Below are positions 4,220 through 22,087 of a stretch of 24,373 nt of DNA, in pieces. How positions within the stretch are numbered: the stretch's first letter is position 1; each line of letters opens with the position of its first letter. The position numbers and the translations under genes are program-made. Source of the DNA: a virus. The notes beneath the pieces were generated by a model. It searched no databases. It was given only the letters and a program-made list of their open reading frames with translations, and was not told where the DNA came from. The stretch spans positions 1 to 24,373 of the IMG/VR virus record IMGVR_UViG_3300028925_006488; one strand, given 5' to 3'.

Positions 4220-4630
4220 ATGTCTCAAATAGACCTTAACAAATATAAAGAATTCGTGGACGCAGTAACTAGTGACGAAAGTAAGAATAATGATACGTTT
4301 ACTAATCGTTGGGTAACATTAGTTAATCAACGTGATGCTGACATGCCTCGATTAGTGACTGCGGCATTTGGCTTAGGTGCTGAAGCAGGCGAATTTACTG
4401 AAGTGGTAAAGAAGATCATGTTCCAAGGCAAGCCGTTAGATAAAGATAATATCTTTCATATGCAACGTGAACTAGGTGATATTATGTGGTACTGGATGCA
4501 AGGGTGTATGGCACTAAACATTGATCCAAATGAAGTTATACAGATGAATATTGATAAACTTAAAGCAAGGTACCCAGGTGGCGACTTTGATGCTCACTAT
4601 AGTGAGAACAGACAGGAAGGCGATGTCTAA
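4220..4630 (+). CDS. mazG: MazG-like nucleotide pyrophosphohydrolase
   Basis: 136 aa, the size of single-domain phage MazG proteins. Metal-binding motifs are visible: EAGE at residues 55-58 with E61, and ELGD at 84-87 in an RELGDIMWYW helix, followed by a basic KLKARYP at 113-119. All-alpha MazG enzymes hydrolyse (d)NTPs to monophosphate and pyrophosphate. In marine phages they have been linked to nucleotide pool management or to alarmone signalling; which applies here cannot be told. The gene is first behind the strong promoter at 4167. Its end overlaps the next gene by eight bases. Confidence 0.9.
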   Translation: MSQIDLNKYKEFVDAVTSDESKNNDTFTNRWVTLVNQRDADMPRLVTAAFGLGAEAGEFTEVVKKIMFQGKPLDKDNIFHMQRELGDIMWYWMQGCMALNIDPNEVIQMNIDKLKARYPGGDFDAHYSENRQEGDV

Positions 4631-7267: not shown

Positions 7268-8030
7268 CACTAGTTATGGCGAAATGGCTTACTATAAAAG
7301 CGATCCAACTATAGGCAAAAGTCTAAAGTTATACGGCGAATACTGTGACCAAGAAGTAGAATTAATTAAGAAACATGTAAATCGTAGTAGTTTTGTTTTA
7401 GATGTAGGTGCCAATATAGGCACACATACATTAGGGATTGCACCGTATGTAAAACTAATAATGGCTATTGAACCTGATCCAGACAATTACGCCTTACTTA
7501 AATTGAATACAGACAAGTGTTTTAGTAAAAATATTAAAACTAGTCGATTAGCATTAGGTAATGACACTGTCGAAGTTGGAACAACGTTTGATTACGGGAA
7601 AACCAGAATAAGCCCTGGCAATACTGTTACTTGTACAACTTTAGACAATATAGTCTTTTTTGCTAAAACAGAAATGTCAACAATAGACTTTATTAAGATA
7701 GATGCAGAAGGAATGGAGTTTCCTATATTACTAGGTGCTCAACAGACACTAATGCATTTTAAACCTAAATTATTAATCGAAATGCAAGATGCAAGTATGA
7801 ATAAAGTAATATATGACTTGTTAGATAGTTTAGGATATAATATGTATTGGGTTACTGTTCCTACATATAATCCAGATAATTTTAAAGGTAATGCCACTAA
7901 TGTATTTGGAAAACAACACGGTGTTCTAAATTGGTTTTGTTCCAAAGAACATCAATCTAGTATGTGGCAAGTAACTAGTAACGAAGATAATATAGAAAAA
8001 CTTGTAATTAGACAAAGAAAGAGTGTATAA
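7245..8030 (+). CDS. FkbM-family SAM-dependent methyltransferase
   Basis: 261 aa. The SAM-binding motif is VLDVGANIGTHTL (51-63), with the acidic loop IEPDPDNY (75-82) and the family motif FIKIDAEGMEFPIL (148-161) followed by LLIEM. FkbM-type enzymes methylate hydroxyl groups on small molecules or sugars; family members in phages and bacteria are often linked to glycan decoration. Residues 205-261 are an extra tail with no clear domain. The substrate cannot be told. It lies directly before the clamp loader gene and starts inside the coiled-coil ORF. Confidence 0.85.
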   Translation: MKKIVRTSTSYGEMAYYKSDPTIGKSLKLYGEYCDQEVELIKKHVNRSSFVLDVGANIGTHTLGIAPYVKLIMAIEPDPDNYALLKLNTDKCFSKNIKTSRLALGNDTVEVGTTFDYGKTRISPGNTVTCTTLDNIVFFAKTEMSTIDFIKIDAEGMEFPILLGAQQTLMHFKPKLLIEMQDASMNKVIYDLLDSLGYNMYWVTVPTYNPDNFKGNATNVFGKQHGVLNWFCSKEHQSSMWQVTSNEDNIEKLVIRQRKSV

Positions 8031-8037
8031 TAGTATT

Positions 8038-8961
8038 ATGAAAGAATTATGGACAGAAAAGTACAGACCCGATGCATTAAATGATTATGTGTTTAGAGAT
8101 TCAGCACAAAAGAATCAAGTACAAGGTTGGGTAGACAGTGGTGCTATTCCTCACTTATTGTTTAGTGGTAGTCCTGGTGTTGGTAAAACTACACTAGCAA
8201 AGATACTGATTAAACAACTTGGTATTAACGAATATGATATACTAGAAATAAATGCTAGTAGAGAAAATAGCGTCGACAATGTTAGAGAAAAGATTACTAA
8301 CTTTGTAGCAACTATGCCTTTTGGTGAATTTAAGATTGTGCTACTAGATGAGGCTGATTATATCTCTCCAAATGGTCAAGCGGCACTTCGTGGTGTTATG
8401 GAAACATATGCTAGTACTGCTAGATTTATACTAACCTGTAATTATCCTAACAAAGTTATTCCAGCACTACATAGTAGATGTCAAGGGTTTCACATTGATA
8501 AAATTGATACAACAGAATTTACTGCTAGAATTGCAACAGTATTAGTTACAGAACAAGTAGAGATTGATATCGATACATTAGATAGTTATGTAAAAGCAAC
8601 ATATCCTGATTTAAGAAAATGTTTAAACCTAGTACAAATGAATACTGTTGATGGCAAACTATTAAAGCCACAAGAGAGTGACAACGCAACTGCTGATTAC
8701 AGATTAGCAGTAGTTGACTTGTTTAAGCAAGGCAAGATAATGGATGCTAGGAAGATGTTGTGTAGTCAAGTACGTCCTGAAGAGATGGATGAAGTTTTCC
8801 GTTGGATGTACGATAACTTAGAACTATGGGGCAATACACAAGATAAACAAGATGCCGCCATTCTAGTTATTGCAAAAGGTCTTAGAGCAATTCCATTAGT
8901 AGCAGACCAAGAGATAAACTTGTCTGCTACGTTAGTTGAACTATGTCAAATAAGAACATAA
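8038..8961 (+). CDS. 44: sliding-clamp loader ATPase subunit, T4 gp44 type
   Basis: 307 aa from ATG 8038 (MKELWTEKYRP), against 319 in T4 gp44. A GTG at 8023 in frame is nearer to the AAAGAG site and would add five residues; the conserved start favours 8038. Walker A is GSPGVGKT (44-51), Walker B VLLDEADY (101-108) with DEAD, sensor 1 is ILTCNYPNK, and the SRC arginine-finger motif is at 146-148. The subunit forms a pentamer with gp62 and opens the gp45 clamp on primed DNA during phage replication. Neither the gp62 nor the gp45 gene is recognisable in this window; in T4 they flank gene 44, but here methyltransferase genes do. Confidence 0.95.
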   Translation: MKELWTEKYRPDALNDYVFRDSAQKNQVQGWVDSGAIPHLLFSGSPGVGKTTLAKILIKQLGINEYDILEINASRENSVDNVREKITNFVATMPFGEFKIVLLDEADYISPNGQAALRGVMETYASTARFILTCNYPNKVIPALHSRCQGFHIDKIDTTEFTARIATVLVTEQVEIDIDTLDSYVKATYPDLRKCLNLVQMNTVDGKLLKPQESDNATADYRLAVVDLFKQGKIMDARKMLCSQVRPEEMDEVFRWMYDNLELWGNTQDKQDAAILVIAKGLRAIPLVADQEINLSATLVELCQIRT

Positions 8962-8962
8962 G

Positions 8963-9598
8963 ATGGATAAACTAGCAAACAGTTACAAAACAAAATCTCA
9001 ACAAGAACTATTAGAGTACTACGATAATTGGGACACTTATGAACAGGATATAATGTCAGCAGGATATATGGGTCCAGTAGGGTGTACTGCTTTATTATAT
9101 AAGTACATAGATAAAAGTAAAAAGATATTAGAGGTTGGGTGTGGCCCGGGTAATGTAGCAAAGTATCTAAACTTAATGAATTTTACTTATATTGATGGTA
9201 TAGATGGGTCCAAAGGAATGGTTAAAAGAGCCATAGAATCTAAAGTATATAATAATGTGTATCATCATATTATTAAAGACGATAAGTTACCTGTTGATGA
9301 TTTTGACGTGCTATTAGCAATGGGAGTATTTACGATTGGTCATTTTCCAAAAGGGTCAATGAAAACTTGTTTTGATTCAATTAAAAGGGGAGGCTATTTT
9401 TGTTTTAGTGGTACAAAAAAAGTTCTCGAATCTTATTTTAAAGATGAATTTGAATATGTAAAATTAAATAGTACTTTCGTAGATTGCACAGAACCTTACC
9501 TATTAGCAGTAAGTAACTCAAGTACAGAAAAAAACACTGCTACTGTGTTTTTATTTAGGAAAAATTTAGCGGCTACGTTGGTAGAGAATATTATATGA
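8963..9598 (+). CDS. class I SAM-dependent methyltransferase
   Basis: 211 aa. Motif I is ILEVGCGPGNVAKYL (55-69), followed by YIDGIDGSKGMVKRA (motif II region, about 76-90) and FDVLLAMGVF (about 114-123). The core resembles small-molecule and ubiE-type methyltransferases. Residues 125-200 complete the Rossmann fold (GGYFCFSGTKKV). There is no target-recognition domain of the DNA methyltransferase type and no NPPY or PC motif, so DNA methylation is unlikely. It follows the clamp loader by one base and overlaps the radical SAM gene through ATGA, so the two enzymes may work in one pathway. Confidence 0.82.
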   Translation: MDKLANSYKTKSQQELLEYYDNWDTYEQDIMSAGYMGPVGCTALLYKYIDKSKKILEVGCGPGNVAKYLNLMNFTYIDGIDGSKGMVKRAIESKVYNNVYHHIIKDDKLPVDDFDVLLAMGVFTIGHFPKGSMKTCFDSIKRGGYFCFSGTKKVLESYFKDEFEYVKLNSTFVDCTEPYLLAVSNSSTEKNTATVFLFRKNLAATLVENII

Positions 9599-10554
9599 TA
9601 TTAAAAGATGTACTGAAATTTGGTAATAGTTTTTGCGTCTTACCTTTCATACATGAACATGTAGACTTAAACAATAAACGTAAGGTTTGTTGTATAAGTA
9701 GTGATACAATAACAAAGGAAAGACAGCAAGAAATTCGTAAACTTATGTTAATGAATGACCCCGTTCCTGAGTGTGTAAAATGTTTACAACAAGAAAAATT
9801 GAAAACATTTAGTGAAAGACAATTTCATAATAAACATTGGATGAAAAACTATGATATAGATTTTTCTAATCCTCATACATTAAGTTATGATTTTCGTTAT
9901 AGTAACCTTTGTAATTTACGTTGTCAGACGTGTAATGCAGTAAGTAGCAGTGAATGGGCTAGGTACTTAGGAAAAGAACAAGTATACAAAACTGTTGACC
10001 CAGACAATACAGACATTAGTCCACATACACAACGTATATATCTTGCAGGAGGCGAGCCTTTTATGATTAAAAGTTTTAGCAAGATGTTAGAGTCACTTGA
10101 AAACAAAGACTGTGAAATAGTTATTAATACTAACGCAACTATCTTAACCAAACATATGATGACTGCACTTGAACCATTTACAAATGTATGCTTTGTGCTT
10201 AGTATAGATGGCACTGGTGATGTTATTGAACGTATACGAACGTTGTGTAGTTGGGATATGATACAGTCTAACATACAAATACTAAGGGATAAACTTAGCC
10301 CAAATTTTATGGTCAATACTGTAATTCAAAAAGATAACTTGGATAATATACCGGAACTAGCAGAATGGATAGATGACCAAAAAATAAGATTATGGCATAC
10401 AACTATACTTACTGACCCATCAAAGTATCATTATAGTCATTATATTGGTAAACTAAACTGGAGTAATGATTTATGGGATAGACAGTGTGTTAGTAGAAAT
10501 ATACAAGTAAAAAATAGTTTAGGTTTTGTTTATAAAGAACTTACTCCTGCATAA
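9595..10554 (+). CDS. radical SAM protein, twitch/SPASM-like cysteines
   Basis: 319 aa. The 4Fe-4S motif CNLRCQTC (C106, C110, C113) has the canonical CX3CX2C spacing. GGEP at 152-155 and INTNAT (about 175-180) are further radical SAM core motifs. The N-terminus holds C14, C32, C33 and a CVKC pair at 60-63, likely ligands of an auxiliary cluster placed before the core. Members use a 5'-deoxyadenosyl radical to modify peptides or small molecules; such proteins are frequent in marine T4-like phages with unknown substrate. It overlaps the upstream methyltransferase by four bases and its end overlaps the oppositely oriented oxygenase gene by fourteen. The Fe-S carrier at 339-644 could supply its clusters. 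Confidence 0.85.
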   Translation: MILKDVLKFGNSFCVLPFIHEHVDLNNKRKVCCISSDTITKERQQEIRKLMLMNDPVPECVKCLQQEKLKTFSERQFHNKHWMKNYDIDFSNPHTLSYDFRYSNLCNLRCQTCNAVSSSEWARYLGKEQVYKTVDPDNTDISPHTQRIYLAGGEPFMIKSFSKMLESLENKDCEIVINTNATILTKHMMTALEPFTNVCFVLSIDGTGDVIERIRTLCSWDMIQSNIQILRDKLSPNFMVNTVIQKDNLDNIPELAEWIDDQKIRLWHTTILTDPSKYHYSHYIGKLNWSNDLWDRQCVSRNIQVKNSLGFVYKELTPA

Positions 10555-11149
10555 AACGTGTCATAATACTTTGACGTAAGTCACATTCTATCTCATCACA
10601 ACTATGCCAACTAAAAGCATCATTCCGCATTATCCAACTAAGATTAGGAGTGAACGGAAATCTTTTTTGTTCATTTCCATGTTCATCATTTAAACTGGTG
10701 CCCCATTTTTCTCCTCCATCACAATAAACATATAACTGCCATGCAATATCCATTTTGTATCCATCGACATGATTATTTACTCCATACCCTTTGTAGTCTT
10801 CCCAAAGACTACTAGATGTATGTGAAAAATTTTTAATGTCTAGTCCTTCTAAATTATATACTGCGTTTTTTATATCAGGGTGGTCAATAATGTTTTTATA
10901 AAAATCTGAATAAAAAGGCAGATATTCTTTATTTGGACTTGTAAACTTTCTATTCTGATTAAAGCCTTTATGGTTGGTTGTATAAGGCACAGAACTATAA
11001 TCAGGCCATTCTTCTTTACATAGACTAAAAAGTTCTGGATGTAATGTGTCGTCTAACTTAACATGCCAGTAAGGATCGTAATCAACAACTGCGTTATTAA
11101 TTTTGTCTATAGTATATTGTCTATAATCATTCCAATTTATGGTTGACAT
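10541..11149 (-). CDS. 2OG-Fe(II) oxygenase
   Basis: 202 aa. The Fe(II) facial triad is visible as H127 and D129 in NNHVDGYK and H182 in FSWHSCDE, with R192 ten residues later to hold 2-oxoglutarate. The strands between (IAWQLYVYCDGGEKWGTSL) fit the jelly-roll core of prolyl-4-hydroxylase-like enzymes that are common in marine phages. The substrate may be a protein, nucleic acid or small molecule. AGGAATACAATG gives a ribosome binding site. It is one of three clear minus-strand genes. It converges on the radical SAM gene with overlapping ends, and a plus-strand promoter (11143-11170) sits over its start codon. Confidence 0.85.
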   Translation of the reverse strand: MSTINWNDYRQYTIDKINNAVVDYDPYWHVKLDDTLHPELFSLCKEEWPDYSSVPYTTNHKGFNQNRKFTSPNKEYLPFYSDFYKNIIDHPDIKNAVYNLEGLDIKNFSHTSSSLWEDYKGYGVNNHVDGYKMDIAWQLYVYCDGGEKWGTSLNDEHGNEQKRFPFTPNLSWIMRNDAFSWHSCDEIECDLRQSIMTRFMQE

Positions 11150-11170
11150 TGTATTCCTATGTGTTATTAT
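11143..11170 (+). promoter_or_regulatory. sigma70-like promoter before the 247-aa gene
   Basis: A perfect TTGACA at 11143-11148, a 16-base spacer and TATTAT at 11165-11170 (five of six). The start site would be near 11177, with AGAAGG as ribosome binding site before ATG 11206. The -35 box overlaps the first codons of the divergent oxygenase gene, so RNA polymerase bound here should block initiation or early elongation of that gene or be displaced by it. Confidence 0.75.
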
Positions 11171-11205
11171 ATGTATAGTTATTAAATAAACAGAAGGTCA
11201 AATTA

Positions 11206-11949
11206 ATGAAAAAGTCTACTGAATATAATACTTATCCTCTTGAAGTTGTAATGTCTTATAGTGTGATGGCATACAATATGAATGGCAGATATGTTAATCT
11301 TGATGTAACGAAGCAGAACTTTAGTAAATGTTCTGAAACTTCTGATACTAATCCAAAAGTAACTACATATAGTAACAAGAATATTATGTTAAACGGAATG
11401 GGTATCAAACAAATCCAACCTGGAAAAGACGAGGAGTTTAAGTTTGAGAATGTTCCTGACGAAGACGAAGTACAAACTGCAAAAGATATTATTACTTACT
11501 ACCAAGGACTAATGCTTAAGGCTATTAGTGGGAAGATTAACGACTTTGAAGAAAAAGTTTTAGAGATTGTTAAACAAGGCGAAGTAGCAAACTTTAACTT
11601 TGGTGTTATTGCTAGTCTACCTAAAAGTTACTTCCGTTCTATGGATAGAGAAAAGGTAGAACAAAAGCAAAGACTACTAAGCGACGACAGTGAATATATA
11701 GGAACTGTTGGAGAACAAATTAAAACTGATATTACAGTTATGCGAACTAACTATATTGCTAAACTTGGATGTCATGTTGTTAATGCAATCGACAAACAGA
11801 AGAACTTAGTTGTGTTCTTCACAAGCAAGGGCGAAGTTTTTAATATTACAGATAAAGATATATCAGTAGTAGGAAAAGTAAAACGTCATCAGACCAGTTC
11901 TTATCATAGTGGTAAGGAAACTGTTCTTAACTATGTAAAGGTAAATTAA
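11206..11949 (+). CDS. conserved phage protein, possible OB-like C-terminal domain
   Basis: 247 aa, soluble, no firm family. The first 150 residues are mixed (VMSYSVMAYNMNGRYVNLDV, then a helical FEEKVLEIVKQGEV). Residues 165-247 read as alternating beta strands: YIGTVGEQIKTDITVM, KNLVVFFTSKGEVFN, ISVVGKVKRHQ and TVLNYVKV. That layout (G..G..I.l.v.v, GN..vWFTS, vkG.VK.H, T.L..vk) resembles small OB-type domains I have seen at the ends of replication-linked phage proteins. If right, it would bind single-stranded nucleic acid. This is a weak analogy. It is the first gene behind the promoter at 11143 and is followed by a one-base overlapping membrane peptide gene. Confidence 0.72.
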   Translation: MKKSTEYNTYPLEVVMSYSVMAYNMNGRYVNLDVTKQNFSKCSETSDTNPKVTTYSNKNIMLNGMGIKQIQPGKDEEFKFENVPDEDEVQTAKDIITYYQGLMLKAISGKINDFEEKVLEIVKQGEVANFNFGVIASLPKSYFRSMDREKVEQKQRLLSDDSEYIGTVGEQIKTDITVMRTNYIAKLGCHVVNAIDKQKNLVVFFTSKGEVFNITDKDISVVGKVKRHQTSSYHSGKETVLNYVKVN

Positions 11950-12095
11950 TGAAAATAGGAATTTTTTTAGCAGGTTTAGGTATCTTCTTATATTGTATAA
12001 CACAGGCTATGTTAGACATAAGTTATTTTTTAGAACTTAATAATATCCGAGTTGAGGGTATTGTTGAGCAAGGAAAAGACTTAATAAATAATTAG
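11949..12095 (+). CDS. short single-span membrane protein
   Basis: 48 aa. The ATG at 11949 shares its A with the previous stop (TAATG), a common coupling junction in this window. Residues 3-22 are hydrophobic (IGIFLAGLGIFLYCITQAM), and the rest is a short, slightly acidic tail (VEGIVEQGKDLINN) that would face one side of the inner membrane. No ribosome binding site beyond the end of the upstream gene is needed if it is coupled. Function is unknown. Small membrane peptides of this size in phages often modulate host membrane proteins or lysis timing, which remains conjecture here. Confidence 0.55.
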   Translation: MKIGIFLAGLGIFLYCITQAMLDISYFLELNNIRVEGIVEQGKDLINN

Positions 12096-12098
12096 ACA

Positions 12099-12310
12099 AG
12101 GCTGGATGCACACAGTCTAGTATGGATTGGTAGCCATATGACACAGAAGTATGAGTTGGGCGAGTGAAACGATATATCAGACCCATAAACATACAACAAA
12201 CTATCCGAAGCAGAGTAATGCAGGAACCAAGGGATTCCTTAAGAGCCGTTGAGTCGTTGGAGGCAATCAACAAAAATGAGCCTATGAAGCCACAGATGGT
12301 TCCCTTATAA
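12099..12310 (+). ncRNA. candidate structured RNA in gene-free block
   Basis: No convincing plus-strand ORF runs through this block. Hand counts give 78 G or C in 12121-12300 (43%), against 19 in 60 bases just after it. Several stems can be drawn: TATGG/CCATA (12121-12125 with 12134-12138); a two-part arm GTATG/CATAC (12149-12153 with 12190-12194) continued by TGGG/CCCA (12157-12160 with 12182-12185); a seven-pair long-range stem GGAACCA/TGGTTCC (12223-12229 with 12297-12303); and AGGC/GCCT (12261-12264 with 12280-12283) inside it. No tRNA T-arm, tmRNA, RNase P or SRP signature was found. The ends given are approximate. The plus strand is assumed from the neighbours. It could be a trans-acting RNA, a cis-acting leader or a decayed element. 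Confidence 0.45.
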
Positions 12311-12316
12311 AAAAGG

Positions 12317-12344
12317 TTGACGAATCTAAAATCTATGTTATATT
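12317..12344 (+). promoter_or_regulatory. sigma70-like promoter after the structured block
   Basis: TTGACG at 12317-12322, a 16-base spacer and TATATT at 12339-12344. The start site would be near 12351, followed by TTAGGAG (12361-12367) and ATG 12374. It drives the cluster of small genes from 12374 onward. Its place immediately after the folded block suggests that the block belongs to the transcript from upstream rather than to this one. Confidence 0.65.
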
Positions 12345-12373
12345 TAATTATAGTTAGAAATTAGGAGAGACAA

Positions 12374-12586
12374 ATGCAAGATATAAGAACTGAAAGAGAA
12401 GCAATATTACACTACTGTAAGACTAATTCAGTAGATGATTTTGTTTATCAAGACACAATAGGTTTTGAAGCATTAGATTATTATCTAACAATGCATGAAT
12501 CAGTTATGCTTGAATTTGTATGTTCGTACTTAGATCAAACAAACGGCATAGATACTCCTTATCCAAAACTACCAATGTTAATTTAG
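12374..12586 (+). CDS. small hypothetical protein
   Basis: 70 aa, not recognised. A good ribosome binding site (TTAGGAGAG) and a promoter lie directly upstream, so expression is likely. The chain is mostly helical and acidic (EREAILHYCKTNSVDDF, FEALDYYLTMHESVMLEFV), with cysteines at about residues 14 and 50, and ends in a Pro-containing tail. There is no signal peptide or membrane span. The ribosome binding site closely matches those at 12963 and 13790, which suggests one regulon of small early genes. Confidence 0.62.
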   Translation: MQDIRTEREAILHYCKTNSVDDFVYQDTIGFEALDYYLTMHESVMLEFVCSYLDQTNGIDTPYPKLPMLI

Positions 12587-15312: not shown

Positions 15313-16056
15313 TTATTTATCATTGTAAATTGTTAGAATCTCACTTACAGCAGGGTGTCTTTCAATATCGTTATGTGTAAATTTAACCATTCTGATAAAT
15401 TTGCTAGTACCAAACTTTTCGTAAAGTTTACCAAAGTCTATCAATCCGTTCTCTGATTCTCGTCTATCTGTTTGTTGAATGTCACCAGTAACAACCATAC
15501 GACTATCGTCTCCGATACGAGTAAGTAACATCTTCATTTGATTTGGTGTTGCATTCTGCATCTCATCTGCGATGATGTAACAGTTTTTAAAAGTTCTTCC
15601 ACGCATGAATGCAAGAGGAGAGATTTCAATAATACCGTCTTCTATCATTTTCGCAGTTTCTTGTGGACTATAATACTCTTGTATTACGTCAAATATAGGT
15701 CTAGTCCAGGGCGCCATTTTTGCATTTAGGTCACCTGGCAAAAACCCGTGCTTTTCATCATCGACACCAACTGCTGGTCTTGTGACTACTATGCGTTCTA
15801 TAGTTTTTGCTTTTAGTTCTTTGATTGCAGAGACTACTGCTAACATGGTTTTACCTGTACCTGCAGGCCCAACGCCAAATACAATCGTATTGCTTGGATT
15901 TAATAATTGTTCGATATACGTTTCTTGATTTAGGTTTCTTGGAATTAATACCACAGATTTTTTGCGTGTGATATAGTTATCCATATTAACAACATTATTG
16001 TCGTTACTTGAGTTGTTTTGATGTTTTTGTTTTTTATTAAATCGTTGTCGACTCAT
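15313..16056 (-). CDS. phoH: PhoH-like P-loop ATPase
   Basis: 247 aa. Walker A is GVGPAGTGKT (61-70), Walker B is IIADEMQNAT (161-170), and the C-terminal GDIQQTDR motif of the family is present. Residues 1-30 are a basic, Asn-rich extension. PhoH is one of the commonest auxiliary genes of marine phages; it is linked by name to phosphate starvation, but its role in infection is not settled and RNA- or nucleotide-related activity has been suggested. The ribosome binding site is GGGAGGA, eight bases before the ATG. A 54-base ORF with its own strong site lies just upstream on the same strand. The stop overlaps the late-type box of the next minus-strand gene. Confidence 0.95.
   Translation of the reverse strand: MSRQRFNKKQKHQNNSSNDNNVVNMDNYITRKKSVVLIPRNLNQETYIEQLLNPSNTIVFGVGPAGTGKTMLAVVSAIKELKAKTIERIVVTRPAVGVDDEKHGFLPGDLNAKMAPWTRPIFDVIQEYYSPQETAKMIEDGIIEISPLAFMRGRTFKNCYIIADEMQNATPNQMKMLLTRIGDDSRMVVTGDIQQTDRRESENGLIDFGKLYEKFGTSKFIRMVKFTHNDIERHPAVSEILTIYNDK
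15314..15321 (-). promoter_or_regulatory. late-promoter-like box GATAAATA, minus strand
   Basis: Read on the minus strand, GATAAATA overlaps the stop codon of phoH and lies 36 bases before the carbohydrate-binding-like gene, the same spacing as at 3392 and 6175. It sits in the loop of an inverted repeat, AACAATTT (15296-15303) and AAATTGTT (15327-15334). It would let the structural-type gene be expressed late and apart from phoH. Confidence 0.55.
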
Positions 16057-16267: not shown

Positions 16268-16945
16268 ATGAATCTAAAGATACTAAATGAAGTAGAATAC
16301 ATGTTGCAGACTAGTCCTCAGGCATTGAGAAGTCCTGCAAAACTAAAGCAGTTAATCAACGGAATATTCTCTGTTGAATTAGATGATGTAAGTTTTAGTA
16401 CAGTTGCCGAACTTACAGATAAAATAGATACCGCAGTACTACACAAGTATTTTGGTGAAGTATGGCAACCAGAGACTAAAAAGTTTAAGTATAGCGGACT
16501 TAAAGTTATTGAAGAAGTTAATGCACTTAAACCTAGAAACGTACTAGATATAGGATGTGGGTATAACGAGTTCAAAGGTAAGATACCTAACTTAATTGGT
16601 ATCGATCCTTATAATACTAATGCTGACTACGAAGTTGGTATAATTGACTACAAGACTGATATTAAGTTTGATGTAGTAATTGCACTAGGCAGTATTAACT
16701 TTGGATCAACAGATAAAGTGTTTGCTGAACTTGAAAAGGCAGTAAATTTGTGTGCTCCAGGTGCAGTAATGTTCTTTAGAGTTAACCCTGGATTACAACA
16801 CCCCAAACCAGAAGCAAAATGGATAACTTTTTATCCATGGAACAGTAACTTTATTATGAATTGTGCAGACTACTTTAATGTAGATATACTTGATTTACGA
16901 AATGATTCAAATAATAGAATGTACTTTGTTTGGAGAACTAAATAA
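16268..16945 (+). CDS. class I SAM-dependent methyltransferase
   Basis: 225 aa. Motif I is NVLDIGCGYNEFKGKI (about 91-106), followed by LIGIDPYNTNADY (acidic loop) and FDVVIALGSINFGS (motif IV region). The core is completed by a strand near 165 (PGAVMFFRVNPG). The N-terminal 80 residues are helical and not assigned. There is no DNA-methyltransferase catalytic motif; a small-molecule or protein substrate is more likely. Similar single-domain enzymes occur in T4-like marine phages. A good ribosome binding site and a start in line with the promoter region support the 5' end. A terminator-like hairpin follows. Confidence 0.8.
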   Translation: MNLKILNEVEYMLQTSPQALRSPAKLKQLINGIFSVELDDVSFSTVAELTDKIDTAVLHKYFGEVWQPETKKFKYSGLKVIEEVNALKPRNVLDIGCGYNEFKGKIPNLIGIDPYNTNADYEVGIIDYKTDIKFDVVIALGSINFGSTDKVFAELEKAVNLCAPGAVMFFRVNPGLQHPKPEAKWITFYPWNSNFIMNCADYFNVDILDLRNDSNNRMYFVWRTK

Positions 16946-17017: not shown

Positions 17018-17569
17018 ATGACAATACCTAACAGAATCTTTCTGACAGGTGTGCCAGGAAGTCGTTGGAGTGGAATTGCTCAAGAAATTGAACAAGATCC
17101 TAGATTCAACACGACTGACAGGACTCCTGATAGAGAATACACACACGGCGAGTTTAGTGGACACGTAGGAGCATACTTTGGAACAGGTATGGAATTTCCT
17201 GCTATACTAGATACAAAAAATTTGGATAGACCTTATACAGGCAACAGTACAAAACTACATAAAAGTCATGAGTGGGCTAGAGTCCTAGACGATATTGTTG
17301 AGCAGTATCCACACTCAGGAATCGTACTAATATATAAGAATGACGAAGCAAGTTTAGATTGGTGGTTACAAGCAGGTGGGTTTAATATAACATATCCTGA
17401 CTACAAATATTATGATGACAAGTTTAGAATGAGAATTGAGATAGGCGAACAGAATATAGGTATTCTAAGATTTGCACAAAAGCATAAGTTAACTTGGAGA
17501 CAACATAATAAACATTCTGATGTGTTTATTGCAACATATAATATACAAGACGGAGAACTTCGGCTATGA
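17018..17569 (+). CDS. P-loop-like protein coupled to the transporter
   Basis: 183 aa. The N-terminus, IFLTGVPGSRWSGIAQEI (residues 7-24), resembles the phosphate-binding loop of sulfotransferases and kinases, but lacks the GK(S/T) of a true Walker A. Later conserved-looking pieces are KSHEWARVLDDIVEQYP, IVLIYKND and DWWLQAGGFNITYPDY. A PAPS-dependent sulfotransferase-like fold is possible; the evidence is thin. It ends in an ATGA overlap with the TctA gene, so it is made together with the transporter and could act on it or on its solute. GAAAGAAAA is a poor ribosome binding site. Confidence 0.6.
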   Translation: MTIPNRIFLTGVPGSRWSGIAQEIEQDPRFNTTDRTPDREYTHGEFSGHVGAYFGTGMEFPAILDTKNLDRPYTGNSTKLHKSHEWARVLDDIVEQYPHSGIVLIYKNDEASLDWWLQAGGFNITYPDYKYYDDKFRMRIEIGEQNIGILRFAQKHKLTWRQHNKHSDVFIATYNIQDGELRL

Positions 17570-19002
17570 TCGAAATGATCGCAGCCTTATTAGGTGGTGT
17601 ACTTTATGGACTAATAATAGGTATTATACCTGCCGCAGGAGCAACCACAGGTTTAATTGCACTGTTTGGTTTTATCAGTTACTTTGTACACGAACCTTAC
17701 TTAGGTGTTATATTCCTAATGGCAGTTGTTGCAGCCTCAACCACAGGCGACTCGTTTACTGCAATACTACTAGGTATACCTGGTGCTAACAGTGCCGCGG
17801 CTACAATGGTAGACGGCTTTCCACTAGCACAACAAGGTAGAGCAGGCTATGCAATAAGTGCAGCCGTTACTACATCAACAGTGAATGGATTAATTTGGGG
17901 TTGTTTGGTATTTTTACTACTGCCTTGGTATACTAACTTGATAATGATATTAGGTATTCCTGAACTGTGGGCATTCACTGTACTAGCACTTGCTACAGTA
18001 GGATTTTTAAGTAACAAATATTGGTTCCGCACAATACTTGCTATTGCTTTTGGAATATTCATAGGGTTAGTAGGAGTTAACCCAGAGAACAATGAACCTC
18101 GATTTACACTAGGTTGGTTTTACTTAGAAGACGGTGTACAAATTATGGCAGTTGCCGCAGGGTTGTTTGCTATTCCAGAACTAGTAAAAGGATTGTTTAC
18201 AAAGACAAGCACTGCCAATGGAGAAATACGCAAAGGCGAATTAGTGGCTGGCATGAAAGCAGTTTGGGAGAATCGCTGGTTGGCACTTAGAGGTGGATTC
18301 ATTGGTGCGTTTATAGGATTATTACCAGGACTAGGTGGACAAATGGCAGACTGGTTGGCTTATGGTTCAGCAGTTGCAGCCAATCCAAAAGAAAAGTTTG
18401 GTAACGGAAATATCAAAGGAGTTATTGGACCCGAAGGTGCTAACAATTCGCAGAAAGCAACTTCAATGATTACAACAGTGATATTTGGCATACCAGGTGC
18501 AAAGTTTGCAGCCATATTGATGAGTTTGTTTATGTATCTAAACATTGAATTAGGTACACCGGATATTGCTGAAGACAAAGAATTATTTACAAGTATGACA
18601 TTTGGGTTTTTAGGTGCAACAGTTATTGTTGCACTTATTTGCATGTTTCTAATCAAACCTATTTGCAAGATAGCAAGTGTTCCATACAAGTATTACTTTC
18701 CAGTACTGCTGGCATTGATTATTTTTACATCAATGCAATACACAGGCGGATGGGAAGATCTCGCAATGTTGGCAATATTTTCCTGCTTGGGATTCTTTTG
18801 CAAACATTTTATGTTTAGTCGACCTGCACTGCTAATTGGATATATTTTAGCAGACAAGGTTGAAGGCTTTACACTACAACTCCTAGGAATATACACCTGG
18901 GAGACACTAATTACAAGACCGATATTCATGGTACTAATTGTTTGTATCATTGGTATCTTAATATTCAGTATAACAAGAAAAGGAAAAATAGATTATGCTT
19001 AA
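17566..19002 (+). CDS. tctA: TctA-family permease, tripartite tricarboxylate transporter
   Basis: 478 aa, near the usual 500 of TctA. Family motifs are present and in order: GLIIGIIPAAGATTGLIAL (15-33), TGDSFTAILLGIPGANSAAA (60-79) followed by TMVDGFPLAQQGRAGYA, then the second-half repeats GLLPGLGGQMADWLAYGSA (251-269) and GVIGPEGANNSQKA, FGIPGAKFAAILM (285-319). About ten to twelve membrane spans are visible. TctA forms the large membrane subunit, which with small subunit TctB and periplasmic TctC imports carboxylates such as citrate by ion symport. The gene looks intact, overlaps the P-loop-like gene by four bases and the binding protein gene by eight. It probably changes solute uptake in infected cells; the solute is unknown. 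Confidence 0.93.
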   Translation: MIEMIAALLGGVLYGLIIGIIPAAGATTGLIALFGFISYFVHEPYLGVIFLMAVVAASTTGDSFTAILLGIPGANSAAATMVDGFPLAQQGRAGYAISAAVTTSTVNGLIWGCLVFLLLPWYTNLIMILGIPELWAFTVLALATVGFLSNKYWFRTILAIAFGIFIGLVGVNPENNEPRFTLGWFYLEDGVQIMAVAAGLFAIPELVKGLFTKTSTANGEIRKGELVAGMKAVWENRWLALRGGFIGAFIGLLPGLGGQMADWLAYGSAVAANPKEKFGNGNIKGVIGPEGANNSQKATSMITTVIFGIPGAKFAAILMSLFMYLNIELGTPDIAEDKELFTSMTFGFLGATVIVALICMFLIKPICKIASVPYKYYFPVLLALIIFTSMQYTGGWEDLAMLAIFSCLGFFCKHFMFSRPALLIGYILADKVEGFTLQLLGIYTWETLITRPIFMVLIVCIIGILIFSITRKGKIDYA

Positions 19003-20059
19003 AATACTTACTACACTAGCAGTACTGCTAGGATTTACTACATCAGCAGTTGCTGATTACACCTTTGTTGTTCCACAAAAGCCAGGTGGTGGAACAAGTG
19101 TGTGGGCACAGATTGTTGCCACAGAAATGGAAAAATACTTGGATGAAAAGATTATTATCAAACACATTCAAGGTGCTAGAGACATTCCAGGATTTAACAA
19201 ATGGCACAACGACATGAGAGACGACGACAAAGTTGTTATGGTATCACATGGTGGTAACGGTGTTAGTTTCTTAAATGAAAAAGTAGACTACGACTACAAC
19301 GAATACGACAGTGTTGGACTTATGAACCTAAACATTATTGTGGCAGCTCGTAAAGACCATAATCCATATGGCGGAAAGACTTCATTTGCCGCTGGTAGTG
19401 GACAGATTCCAGAAGGTATTGCAATAACACTATTAAAATGTGGCCCTGGACTTACAACAGAACAATATATCGATTGTTTTAAAAATAACGTCAATTGGAT
19501 TAAAGGCATGAAAGGCGGACAAAGACGTCTAGCATTTAAACGTGGCGAACTAGATGGAACAAGAGAAAATCCAGCCGCATTTAAAAAGCATGTACAACCC
19601 GTCATAGACAAGGGACTAGCAGGGTTATGGTTTCATCATGGCATACTACAACCAGATGGTTCACATGCAGATGATCCAAACTATCCAGGTATACAAATGG
19701 AAGACTTATTCTATGCCGCAAATAGAACAAAGCCTGAAAGTGATTTATATGCTGCCTACAAACTTGTAAAAAGTTTCCGTGATGGTATGCAGAAAGCACT
19801 ATGGGTAGCAAAAGGCAATCCTAATAAAGCAAAACTAATTGCTGCATTAGAAAAAGTTGCAACAACTCCTGAATCAATTAAAGCAGTTCAGAAGAAAGTT
19901 GGACAATACGATTGGTTAATTGGTAAAGATGGTGACGCTCATAGAGATACACTTATGAAACTAATAACACCAAAAGCATTAAGCACACTTGTTAAGTTTA
20001 ACAACGAAGCATTTGGAATTAAGGCTGTTTATAAAGATACACTAGTTGCCCAAAAGTAA
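18995..20059 (+). CDS. tctC: TctC-like periplasmic solute-binding protein
   Basis: 354 aa. A Sec signal peptide is clear (MLKILTTLAVLLGFTTSAVA, cut after residue 20), so the mature protein should go to the host periplasm. The first mature strand and loop, FVVPQKPGGGTSVWAQIVA (24-42), match the VPFPPGGGTD ligand loop of TctC proteins. Beyond that it is divergent: GARDIPGFNKWHN and MVSHGGNGVSFL are not typical, it has two cysteines (149, 161) that could form a disulfide, and it is somewhat longer than the usual 320-330. It probably feeds the TctA permease encoded just before it. Ligand identity cannot be read from the sequence. Confidence 0.85.
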   Translation: MLKILTTLAVLLGFTTSAVADYTFVVPQKPGGGTSVWAQIVATEMEKYLDEKIIIKHIQGARDIPGFNKWHNDMRDDDKVVMVSHGGNGVSFLNEKVDYDYNEYDSVGLMNLNIIVAARKDHNPYGGKTSFAAGSGQIPEGIAITLLKCGPGLTTEQYIDCFKNNVNWIKGMKGGQRRLAFKRGELDGTRENPAAFKKHVQPVIDKGLAGLWFHHGILQPDGSHADDPNYPGIQMEDLFYAANRTKPESDLYAAYKLVKSFRDGMQKALWVAKGNPNKAKLIAALEKVATTPESIKAVQKKVGQYDWLIGKDGDAHRDTLMKLITPKALSTLVKFNNEAFGIKAVYKDTLVAQK

Positions 20060-20279
20060 CTTAGTAACTTATGTTAAATATGCGAGTGCAGTAACCATAC
20101 TATTTGCTATGGTTCTGCATGTCGCAGGCATAACTCCTTGGAATAGCATACTGCAAATGGTAGGTGCTAGTGGTTGGATTTATGTAGGATATAAATGGAA
20201 TGAGAAAGCAATCATACTAAACTTCTTACCACAGTTTGCTATTATTATTCCAATGCTAATATGGATGTACTTTGCATGA
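20046..20279 (+). CDS. small membrane protein in the TctB position
   Basis: 77 aa from TTG 20046, which overlaps the end of tctC by 14 bases; no ATG is in frame before residue 22, so the start is unsure. Two to three hydrophobic segments are visible: YASAVTILFAMVLHVAGI (12-29), ILQMVGASGWIYVGY (35-49) and ILNFLPQFAIIIPMLIWMYF (57-76). True TctB has four spans in about 150 residues, so this is half the size and no clear homology is seen. It resembles small bacterial membrane proteins with W...G..WKEKA..L motifs. By place it may replace TctB or stabilise the permease. It overlaps the next gene by ATGA. Confidence 0.6.
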   Translation: MPKSNLVTYVKYASAVTILFAMVLHVAGITPWNSILQMVGASGWIYVGYKWNEKAIILNFLPQFAIIIPMLIWMYFA

Positions 20280-20512
20280 AACAATTTGAAAACAAAACAC
20301 TAGAAGATCCTGATAAACAAAAAGAAGTTGTAGATATAGTTAGAGGAATTATTAAAAGAGTAAAAAAGACATCTACTCATTGTTTAGTAATTTATGATAA
20401 ATCACAGAAAAAATTAAAAAGAAAAAAATTACATAAAGAACTTACTGAACATGAATTACTTGAATTATGTAATGATATGTGGGCAGCCCGTTTATGTGGG
20501 ATAGAATATTAA
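20276..20512 (+). CDS. small basic hypothetical protein
   Basis: 78 aa from ATG 20276, which overlaps the preceding TGA; an ATG 15 bases earlier lies inside the membrane protein gene. It is lysine-rich in the middle (KSQKKLKRKKLHKEL) with flanking helices (KEVVDIVRGIIKRVKK and TEHELLELCNDMWAARL). There is no membrane span. It could bind nucleic acid, judged by charge only. It is the last member of the overlapping run that begins at 17018, though it does not look like a transporter part. Confidence 0.6.
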   Translation: MKQFENKTLEDPDKQKEVVDIVRGIIKRVKKTSTHCLVIYDKSQKKLKRKKLHKELTEHELLELCNDMWAARLCGIEY

Positions 20513-20819: not shown

Positions 20820-21569
20820 ATGGATGTACCTATTATGACAGTATTAATTTCGGGTGGTGATAGTTTTACTTATGGTAGCGAGTTGTCTAGTCAAGAACAT
20901 GCATGGAGTAATTTACTTGCAAAAAAACTAGGCATGAATATATGTAATACTGCAAAACCTGCCGCAAGTAATAGTAGTATCAGACGTAATGTTATGAATG
21001 CTATAAACAAATACAAAGACTTAGATTTGTTCGTAGCAGTAATGTGGAGTTTTCCTAATCGTTATGAGTTTAGATTTGCATATGATACAGGACATGCAGA
21101 TAGTCCATGGTATAGTATTAATCCTTGGACACATAATGATCAAAACTTTGAAGATCATTTCGTTAACCCAGATGAATCTGTGTTAAAAAAACAAAACGCA
21201 AACAGATCCAATGCAGAAAAAAGAGGAATAACAGACTTTGCCAAAAATTATATAAACAATGTTGCTGAAACAGAATATTGGGAAATATATACAAGTTGGT
21301 GTGAGATAGTTATGTTACAAAATTATCTTGTAAAACATAACATAAAGTATGTTTTTATGCATGTGGATAATAGTTTGTTCGAGTATAATTCTAATATGGA
21401 CTCAACTTTAAGAACATTAAGAGAAGATATTGATATGACTAAATGGGGTGCTGATATAGGCATGTATAACTGGGCAAAGCAGACTAAGCAACCTTTTTAT
21501 ACGACTCATCCTAAAGAGATTGCACATGCTGAATGGATAAATACATTATATATACAAAAGGGCCCGTAA
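20820..21569 (+). CDS. SGNH-hydrolase-like protein
   Basis: 249 aa. Block I of the SGNH/GDSL family is visible as SGGDSFTYGSEL (11-22) with the nucleophile S15. NTAKPAASNSSIRR (43-56) could hold the glycine/asparagine oxyanion blocks, and THPKEIAHAEWI (229-240) resembles the terminal block with catalytic His. Enzymes of this fold remove acyl groups from sugars, lipids or proteins. Phage members of this type are often annotated only by fold. There is no signal peptide, so it would act in the cytoplasm or on the virion. The start may be 20820 or the Met six codons in (20835); an overlapping ATG at 20806 leads only to a ten-codon ORF. Confidence 0.65.
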   Translation: MDVPIMTVLISGGDSFTYGSELSSQEHAWSNLLAKKLGMNICNTAKPAASNSSIRRNVMNAINKYKDLDLFVAVMWSFPNRYEFRFAYDTGHADSPWYSINPWTHNDQNFEDHFVNPDESVLKKQNANRSNAEKRGITDFAKNYINNVAETEYWEIYTSWCEIVMLQNYLVKHNIKYVFMHVDNSLFEYNSNMDSTLRTLREDIDMTKWGADIGMYNWAKQTKQPFYTTHPKEIAHAEWINTLYIQKGP

Positions 21570-21571
21570 TC

Positions 21572-22087
21572 ATGGATATCAAAGATATAGTCGAAAATAC
21601 TAAAAACATTTATATGAGTGAAAGTAGTTTAAAGACTCTTATGGACTTTGAAAGAGTATTAGACGAATTAGACATGTATGCTTTTAAAAACTGGAGCAAA
21701 GGTGAACTTGTAGAAGGTCCAGTCAAATCTAAACATTGGGTTGAGTGTACATTTATGTGGCCCAATAAAGCAATGCCAGATCCAGATGCGGCTAAGAGAC
21801 TACTACAATACAATGTTGTCGTTGAGTATAGTAAAGATAAATTAACAACTCCAATCAAGGTTGAGAACTACAGTGACTTTGCGCCAGGCACAAAAGTTCC
21901 AAAGTTAGAAGAAAATCCTATTTGGTTAGTTAAGATTAAAATGCCAAGTGAAATCGTTAGTGATGCAGTTGAAGGGTTTATTGAACTAGAAGGACGTGAT
22001 GTTGATTTAAGTGAATTAGATTCTTCGTACGAAAGCGGATTAGATAATATGACTGCCCAATCTGTTCAAGAGCCTGGAGTTGTATAA
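21572..22087 (+). CDS. conserved phage protein of unknown function
   Basis: 171 aa from ATG 21572 (MDIKDIVENTKNIYMSESSL). An upstream in-frame start at 21533 lies within the previous gene. The N-terminal part is helical (LMDFERVLDELDMYAF), the middle is beta-rich (KHWVECTFMWPNK, YNVVVEYSKDKL, WLVKIKMP), and the last 40 residues are acidic. Its stop shares a base with the next ATG. I have an impression of similar paired genes in T4-like cyanophages and pelagiphages, where they are conserved without a known role; a virion or genome-packaging link is possible. There is no signal peptide or span. Confidence 0.72.
   Translation: MDIKDIVENTKNIYMSESSLKTLMDFERVLDELDMYAFKNWSKGELVEGPVKSKHWVECTFMWPNKAMPDPDAAKRLLQYNVVVEYSKDKLTTPIKVENYSDFAPGTKVPKLEENPIWLVKIKMPSEIVSDAVEGFIELEGRDVDLSELDSSYESGLDNMTAQSVQEPGVV

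Follow-up and report, generated by a model that had tools for sequence, protein, structure and literature searches.

A TctA-family permease and a TctC-fold partner without TctB: a putative two-part import system in a marine phage lineage

Does a phage that carries a TctA permease beside a secreted binding protein possess an import system of the tripartite tricarboxylate transporter (TTT) type, and can such a system do without the TctB subunit, the need for which is a question left open in the TTT literature (PMC5812351)? The locus that raises this question lies in the IMG/VR viral record IMGVR_UViG_3300028925_006488, a 24.4-kb sequence with T4-like phage genes that was analysed over its full length of 24,373 nucleotides (the window). 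A first, sequence-only reading had proposed that positions 17,018 to 20,512 hold a phage-borne TTT operon without a normal TctB. Our analysis indicates that the TctA gene and the binding-protein gene that follows it probably represent a two-part, TctB-less putative import system of the TTT type that belongs to a phage lineage, with solute import as its predicted role.

The permease is a full-length TctA, as had been read from the sequence. PF01970 covers it from position 2 to 422 of the 423 in the profile, with 315 bits against a gathering cut-off of 28.9, and a hydropathy window gives about 11 hydrophobic segments, with no TctB-like extension at the C-terminus. Across 22 aligned phage TctAs the mean column identity is 74%, many glycines and prolines are invariant, and the closed TctA frames in the 76 phage loci that contain this gene measure 473-500 aa.

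The partner gene gave no match in Pfam, NCBIfam or PHROG, so that the identification with the TctC model PF03401, which the sequence-only reading had foreseen, did not succeed; as a control, a bacterial TctC (from contig L107) matches this model at 4.8e-50, while a long TctC from SAR11 also fails. The secreted, TctC-like nature of the protein was nevertheless borne out by other evidence. Its AlphaFold2 model, with a predicted local distance difference test score (pLDDT) of 86.8, was compared with known structures using VIA-align, and the top 11 chains are all TctC/Bug proteins (Z 18.6-22.7, root-mean-square deviation 3.0-4.4 over 266-274 residues), the next chain having a Z of 13.9. The best chains include BugD, MatC, Rpa4515, Bug27, TphC, a terephthalate-binding protein and a Polaromonas TctC. 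The alignment of the phage protein with six bacterial TctCs by hhalign reached a probability of 99.8% over 307 columns, and a signal peptide can be read at the hydrophobic N-terminus, with a conserved A18-x-A20 in which A20 is invariant. The protein is thus assigned a TctC/Bug-type fold on the basis of its predicted structure. Because it has no family model, annotation pipelines miss the system.

In TctC/Bug proteins, the PFxAGGxxD loop holds the carboxylate of the ligand through water molecules, hydroxyl residues substitute for its Asp in some Bug proteins, and the contacts to the remainder of the ligand differ across the family (PMC5812351). In the hhalign alignment, the phage protein has PQKPGGGTS in place of this loop; over 24 aligned members, the P and the two G residues are largely kept, F and A are replaced, and Asp becomes Ser or Thr. 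Since the loop is partly kept, the solute probably bears a carboxylate, and since the remaining ligand contacts vary within the family, we name no substrate beyond this. The suggestion that carboxylates would feed the TCA cycle found no support, the substrate not being readable from sequence.

The expected absence of a normal TctB was confirmed: PF07331 has no match in any of 26 records, comprising the window and 25 related viral records that include contigs of 316 kb and 125 kb. In the nearest sampled bacterial relatives, the TctA proteins are 650-690 aa long, the TctA domain being followed by about 180 extra residues with four transmembrane (TM) segments. The end of this extension shows a pattern that is also found in free TctB, the statistical match being weak, and a profile built from the extension scores free TctBs at only 5-9 bits. 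In the 76 phage loci, no open reading frame (ORF) matched the extension profile better than expected by chance, and the only small four-TM ORFs near the phage pair were fragments of TctA. The TctB equivalent of the nearest bacterial relatives is fused to TctA and would not be free for borrowing from such hosts. As the search for TctB was negative, we class the pair as a TctA-family permease plus a partner of TctC fold and not as a canonical tripartite system. As a side observation, SAR11-order genomes (L104, L105 and L106) encode a TctA of their own that bears a TctB-like extension, together with a long protein resembling TctC; PF03401 misses at least one of these long proteins, so the annotation of TTT systems may be incomplete in this order.

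The combination of permease and binding protein had been thought rare in phages, an assessment that does not hold for uncultured marine phages. When IMG/VR was scanned with the TctA alignment, relatives turned up in at least 333 stretches, some of which may be contigs of the same phage, and a search with the binding protein alone found 119. In contrast to this abundance, the system was unseen in the phage records searched: among 50,697 of them, a set that may omit those closest to the window, the binding protein had no match, and the seven TctA matches in the INPHARED collection, at only 24-30% identity and in enterobacterial or human-faeces records, are unlike this lineage.

The binding-protein gene adjoins tctA on the same strand in 68 of the 76 TctA-centred loci, and four of the remainder are truncated where the contig stops. 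The commonest junction, an overlap of 8 nt (-8 nt), is found in 46 loci; a pair that recurs in dozens of contigs, mostly with the same overlap, is not there by chance. One phage contig shows the reversed order, with the binding protein upstream of TctA (L316:1366-2512). The distances of the two proteins are strongly correlated over 65 loci (Mantel r = 0.92, with none of 999 permutations as high), a value that partly reflects shared phage descent. Both proteins are under purifying selection, the ratio of nonsynonymous to synonymous substitution rates (dN/dS) being 0.026-0.13 between relatives for TctA and mostly about 0.05-0.2 for the binding protein. The carriers span at least two myovirus groups: the clamp loader of the window is nearest to that of the Pseudomonas jumbo phage PA5oct (55%), and carriers of the L046/L051 type have regA, a clamp-loader subunit and a gp43 that is closest to those of phage C48C1 and cyanophages. 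In L046, an Hsp20-like and an IscU-like gene (L046:7313-8175) stand after the block of transporter and gene B (see below); in related contigs, their place is ahead of the DNA polymerase.

To describe the insertion site, 37 loci were anchored on the structural gene that starts at position 21533. TctA or the binding protein is encoded in 22 of them. Another 10, each with 5.5 kb or more of sequence upstream, encode neither; in six of these 10 (L317, L322, L323, L324, L327 and L329) the site is empty, phoH directly adjoining the structural gene. The genes in between form an island that has been gained or lost at one site in phage genomes.

Regarding the origin of the genes, the nearest sampled bacterial TctAs, apart from one marine metagenome-assembled genome (MAG), are 34-36% identical to the phage protein. 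In the TctA tree, a quick one with long branches, 50 phage rows and the TctA of the marine bacterium B5-7 MAG are split from 15 bacterial TctAs, SAR11 included, by a branch with 100% support; bacterial sampling amounted to about 870 genome searches for the binding protein and about 500 for TctA. The phage TctAs thus appear to be one lineage of their own, which may stem from an unsampled bacterial donor; the branching with marine alphaproteobacteria that the sequence-only reading had named as a check was not seen with the SAR11 and other bacterial TctAs sampled. A SAR11 origin was likewise rejected within this limited sampling, as the tree places the TctA of SAR11 among the other bacterial ones, on the far side of the same branch. 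A scan of bacterial genomes yielded only two matches with the phage-conserved patterns. One of them, the contig L090 of a Pelagibacter MAG, probably comes from a phage. The B5-7 contig (L089), whose positions 8536-12376 hold homologues of TctA, the binding protein and genes A and B among bacterial-type genes, alone among contigs of bacterial appearance has all four genes in closely related form; it may be a donor, a recipient, a mis-binned contig or an integrated phage island.

The pair is part of a plus-strand island that also includes genes A and B, DUF6552 and small ORFs, between phoH and the virion structural genes (Table 1). The coupling by overlaps noted in the sequence-only reading is as it had been given: A and B are 72 nt apart, and from B onward successive ORFs overlap by 4 nt (B and TctA), 8 nt, 14 nt and 19 nt.

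Table 1. Features of the transporter island and its surroundings in the window
Feature	Position	Strand	Evidence or remark
gp44-type clamp loader	8023-8961		
phoH	15313..16056	-	PF02562 E 8e-72; left island border
Gene A, S-adenosylmethionine (SAM)-methyltransferase-like	16268..16945	+	PF13489 E 2.9e-4, below cut-off
Gene B, P-loop protein	17018..17569	+	motif GxPGSxWS; weak sulfotransferase-like fold
TctA-family permease, 478 aa	17566..19002	+	PF01970 E 7.7e-94
TctC/Bug-like secreted solute-binding protein, 354 aa	18995..20059	+	predicted structure, hhalign
DUF6552 (PF20189), 77 aa, two TM, TTG start	20046..20279	+	E 7.1e-11
83-aa ORF, no family match	20261..20512	+	
Virion structural protein	21533..22087	+	phrog_12928 E 3e-30; right island border
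phrog_13138 virion structural gene	at 22087		next after the gene at 21533
Baseplate hub/lysozyme-like protein	at 22547		

Gene A scores 21.1 bits with PF13489 against a cut-off of 27, and its motif VLDIGCGYNEFKG was spotted by eye. For gene B, the AlphaFold2 model (pLDDT 93.3) has tyrosylprotein sulfotransferase as its best structural match (Z 9.2), followed by nucleotide kinases at about 8, and the best Foldseek E is 0.012; between a sulfotransferase and a nucleotide kinase fold, the model comparison is too close to call. Gene A is present in 69 and gene B in 61 of the 91 loci compared, and the A-B pair is very common in phages, a search with gene B giving at least about 600 stretches. Among the 50,697 phage records, with the same reservation on records very near the window, gene A went unmatched and gene B matched one record, from a single-cell phage. 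B-A fusion ORFs occur in L022 (4343-5452) and L025 (3278-4387). A lies within 8 kb of B in all 30 fully flanked loci, 19 of which have the transporter and 11 of which do not. The P-loop gene is thus truly coupled to the transporter in the window, as first proposed, B overlapping TctA there, and this link is not obligatory, since B belongs to a separate A-B pair, which is also found where the transporter is missing.

Apart from DUF6552, the operon of the window encodes no small membrane protein. DUF6552 was considered as a substitute for TctB and ruled out: its bacterial copies are mostly near pst, phoU, phoB or pit, none of those inspected being beside tctA, and HTVC008M and Mosig have DUF6552 without a TctA or binding-protein match. 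It is an optional neighbour, present in 21 of the 91 loci. In SAR11-order and other alphaproteobacteria (L143, L144, L145, L146 and L148), it stands near pst/phoU/phoB or phoU/pit, and a role in the phosphate response is possible. The 83-aa ORF has, besides the copy in the window itself, a tblastn match among the loci compared only in the nearest relative (L003).

Promoter-like signals do not exceed expectation in the window: the T4-type late promoter sequences TATAAATA and CTAAATA have one match against 5.1 expected and three against 9.4 expected, respectively, and sigma-70-like sites are fewer than in shuffles. The same phage record also encodes a QueE-like radical SAM protein and a MazG-like pyrophosphatase (window positions 9595-10554 and 4220-4630), and a tRNA-Ser gene at positions 11-100 was reported with the anticodon ACT, which is unusual for bacteria and phages.

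More tentatively than the two-part assignment itself, we regard as possible a fuller reading in which a predicted two-protein secondary importer, evolved in phages and dependent on its binding protein, belongs to a large marine myophage group, has dispensed with TctB and brings a specific dissolved organic solute into the cell during infection. Such an importer would count as a minimal TTT system and would give phages a new route for taking up carbon or sulfur compounds. In the two-part system that we favour, the binding protein would be exported to the periplasm of the infected cell and would close around a small solute, probably a carboxylate-bearing one; once loaded, it would dock on TctA, and the solute would be carried inward on an ion gradient, with the core permease working without TctB. 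In nutrient-poor water, the phage would benefit from taking up, for its own production, an organic solute that limits growth. Certain observations weigh against the two-part system: none of the 24 phage binding proteins matches PF03401, Ser or Thr stands where the TctC loop has its conserved Asp, and free TctB is so diverse that some members are missed by profiles, so that a divergent TctB could be encoded by the phage or the host. This last point leads to the rival explanation that we consider the least improbable, although unlikely, namely that the phage TctA and binding protein assemble into a hybrid transporter with a TctB from the host or from elsewhere in the phage genome. TctABC systems are tripartite (PMC5812351), profiles find free TctB poorly, and most of the contigs are incomplete, which leaves distant phage genes unseen. 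However, hosts of the kind represented by the nearest bacterial relatives, SAR11 included, have the TctB-like domain fused and would offer no free subunit, and no TctB was found in the 316-kb and 125-kb contigs.

The rival in which the island is one functional unit, with A and B acting on the solute that the transporter imports, seems to us less likely than a hybrid transporter. A is found in 64 and B in 47 of the 76 TctA loci, and the homologues of all four genes are together in the bacterial contig L089; against this, A and B lack the transporter in the 11 fully flanked loci mentioned above and in the marine virus AG-345-D19, and their order and strand vary across loci. Slightly less probable again is a use of the pair in the envelope other than transport, such as signal reception or the exclusion of competing phages, with solute import being secondary. 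Some TctC proteins act as signal receptors, and the pair is located in an island of variable genes; however, a receptor alone would not need a permease, and here the whole transporter architecture is kept under strong purifying selection, with both proteins co-diverging. As for an assembly chimera or decaying host DNA, a full permease is indeed unusual in annotated phages, but the same junctions recur in independent assemblies, with phoH on the left and phage structural genes on the right, and the empty site exists in related phages, which excludes the chimeric host contig that could have refuted the phage-borne origin; the genes also have no stop codons and a low dN/dS, and we give this explanation a negligible probability. 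If the two-part importer is functional, phages supply a complete uptake route, with a permease and its own matched receptor, and not merely a spare receptor. The pair could also serve as a natural test of the need for TctB.

In the literature covered, mostly without subscription papers, no description of the pair, of its lack of TctB or of its prevalence was found. A tctA domain match is given for a SUP05 viral contig (PMC4164917), and "tricarboxylate transport" genes are listed beside norB/nirK on a myovirus scaffold from an oxygen-minimum zone (PMC8115048); in the relevant parts of these sources, the genes appear as a domain match or a table entry, with no binding-protein pairing, TctB absence, lineage or prevalence. 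Compared with known systems, the phage pair resembles Salmonella TctCBA and the MatC- and AdpC-type systems in having a TctA permease and a TctC/Bug-fold protein with a signal peptide encoded by adjacent genes. It differs from these systems in lacking TctB, in the order of TctA followed by the binding protein, in being carried by phages, and in a binding protein that falls outside PF03401 and has S/T in place of the conserved Asp. In SAR11 and other marine bacteria, TctA adjoins a binding protein of ~357 aa, at least one of which misses PF03401 like the phage one, whereas the bacterial TctA reaches 650-690 aa with its four extra TM segments, against about 478 aa in the phage. The closest bacterial counterpart is the B5-7 MAG contig, with a TctA and a binding protein that are 56% and 54% identical to those of the phage, genes A and B alongside, and a TctA without the extension; it differs in the bacterial-type genes that it carries, YcaO-like and others. 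The PBP2_Bug_TTT proteins of uncultured Caudovirales in BFVD share the TctC-like fold, with only 11-16% identity. PstS is a nutrient-uptake gene of marine viruses. The transporter genes focA and amtB are also listed for marine viruses (PMC8115048). Compared with these three, the system described here stands apart in that a permease and its matched binding protein come as a unit.

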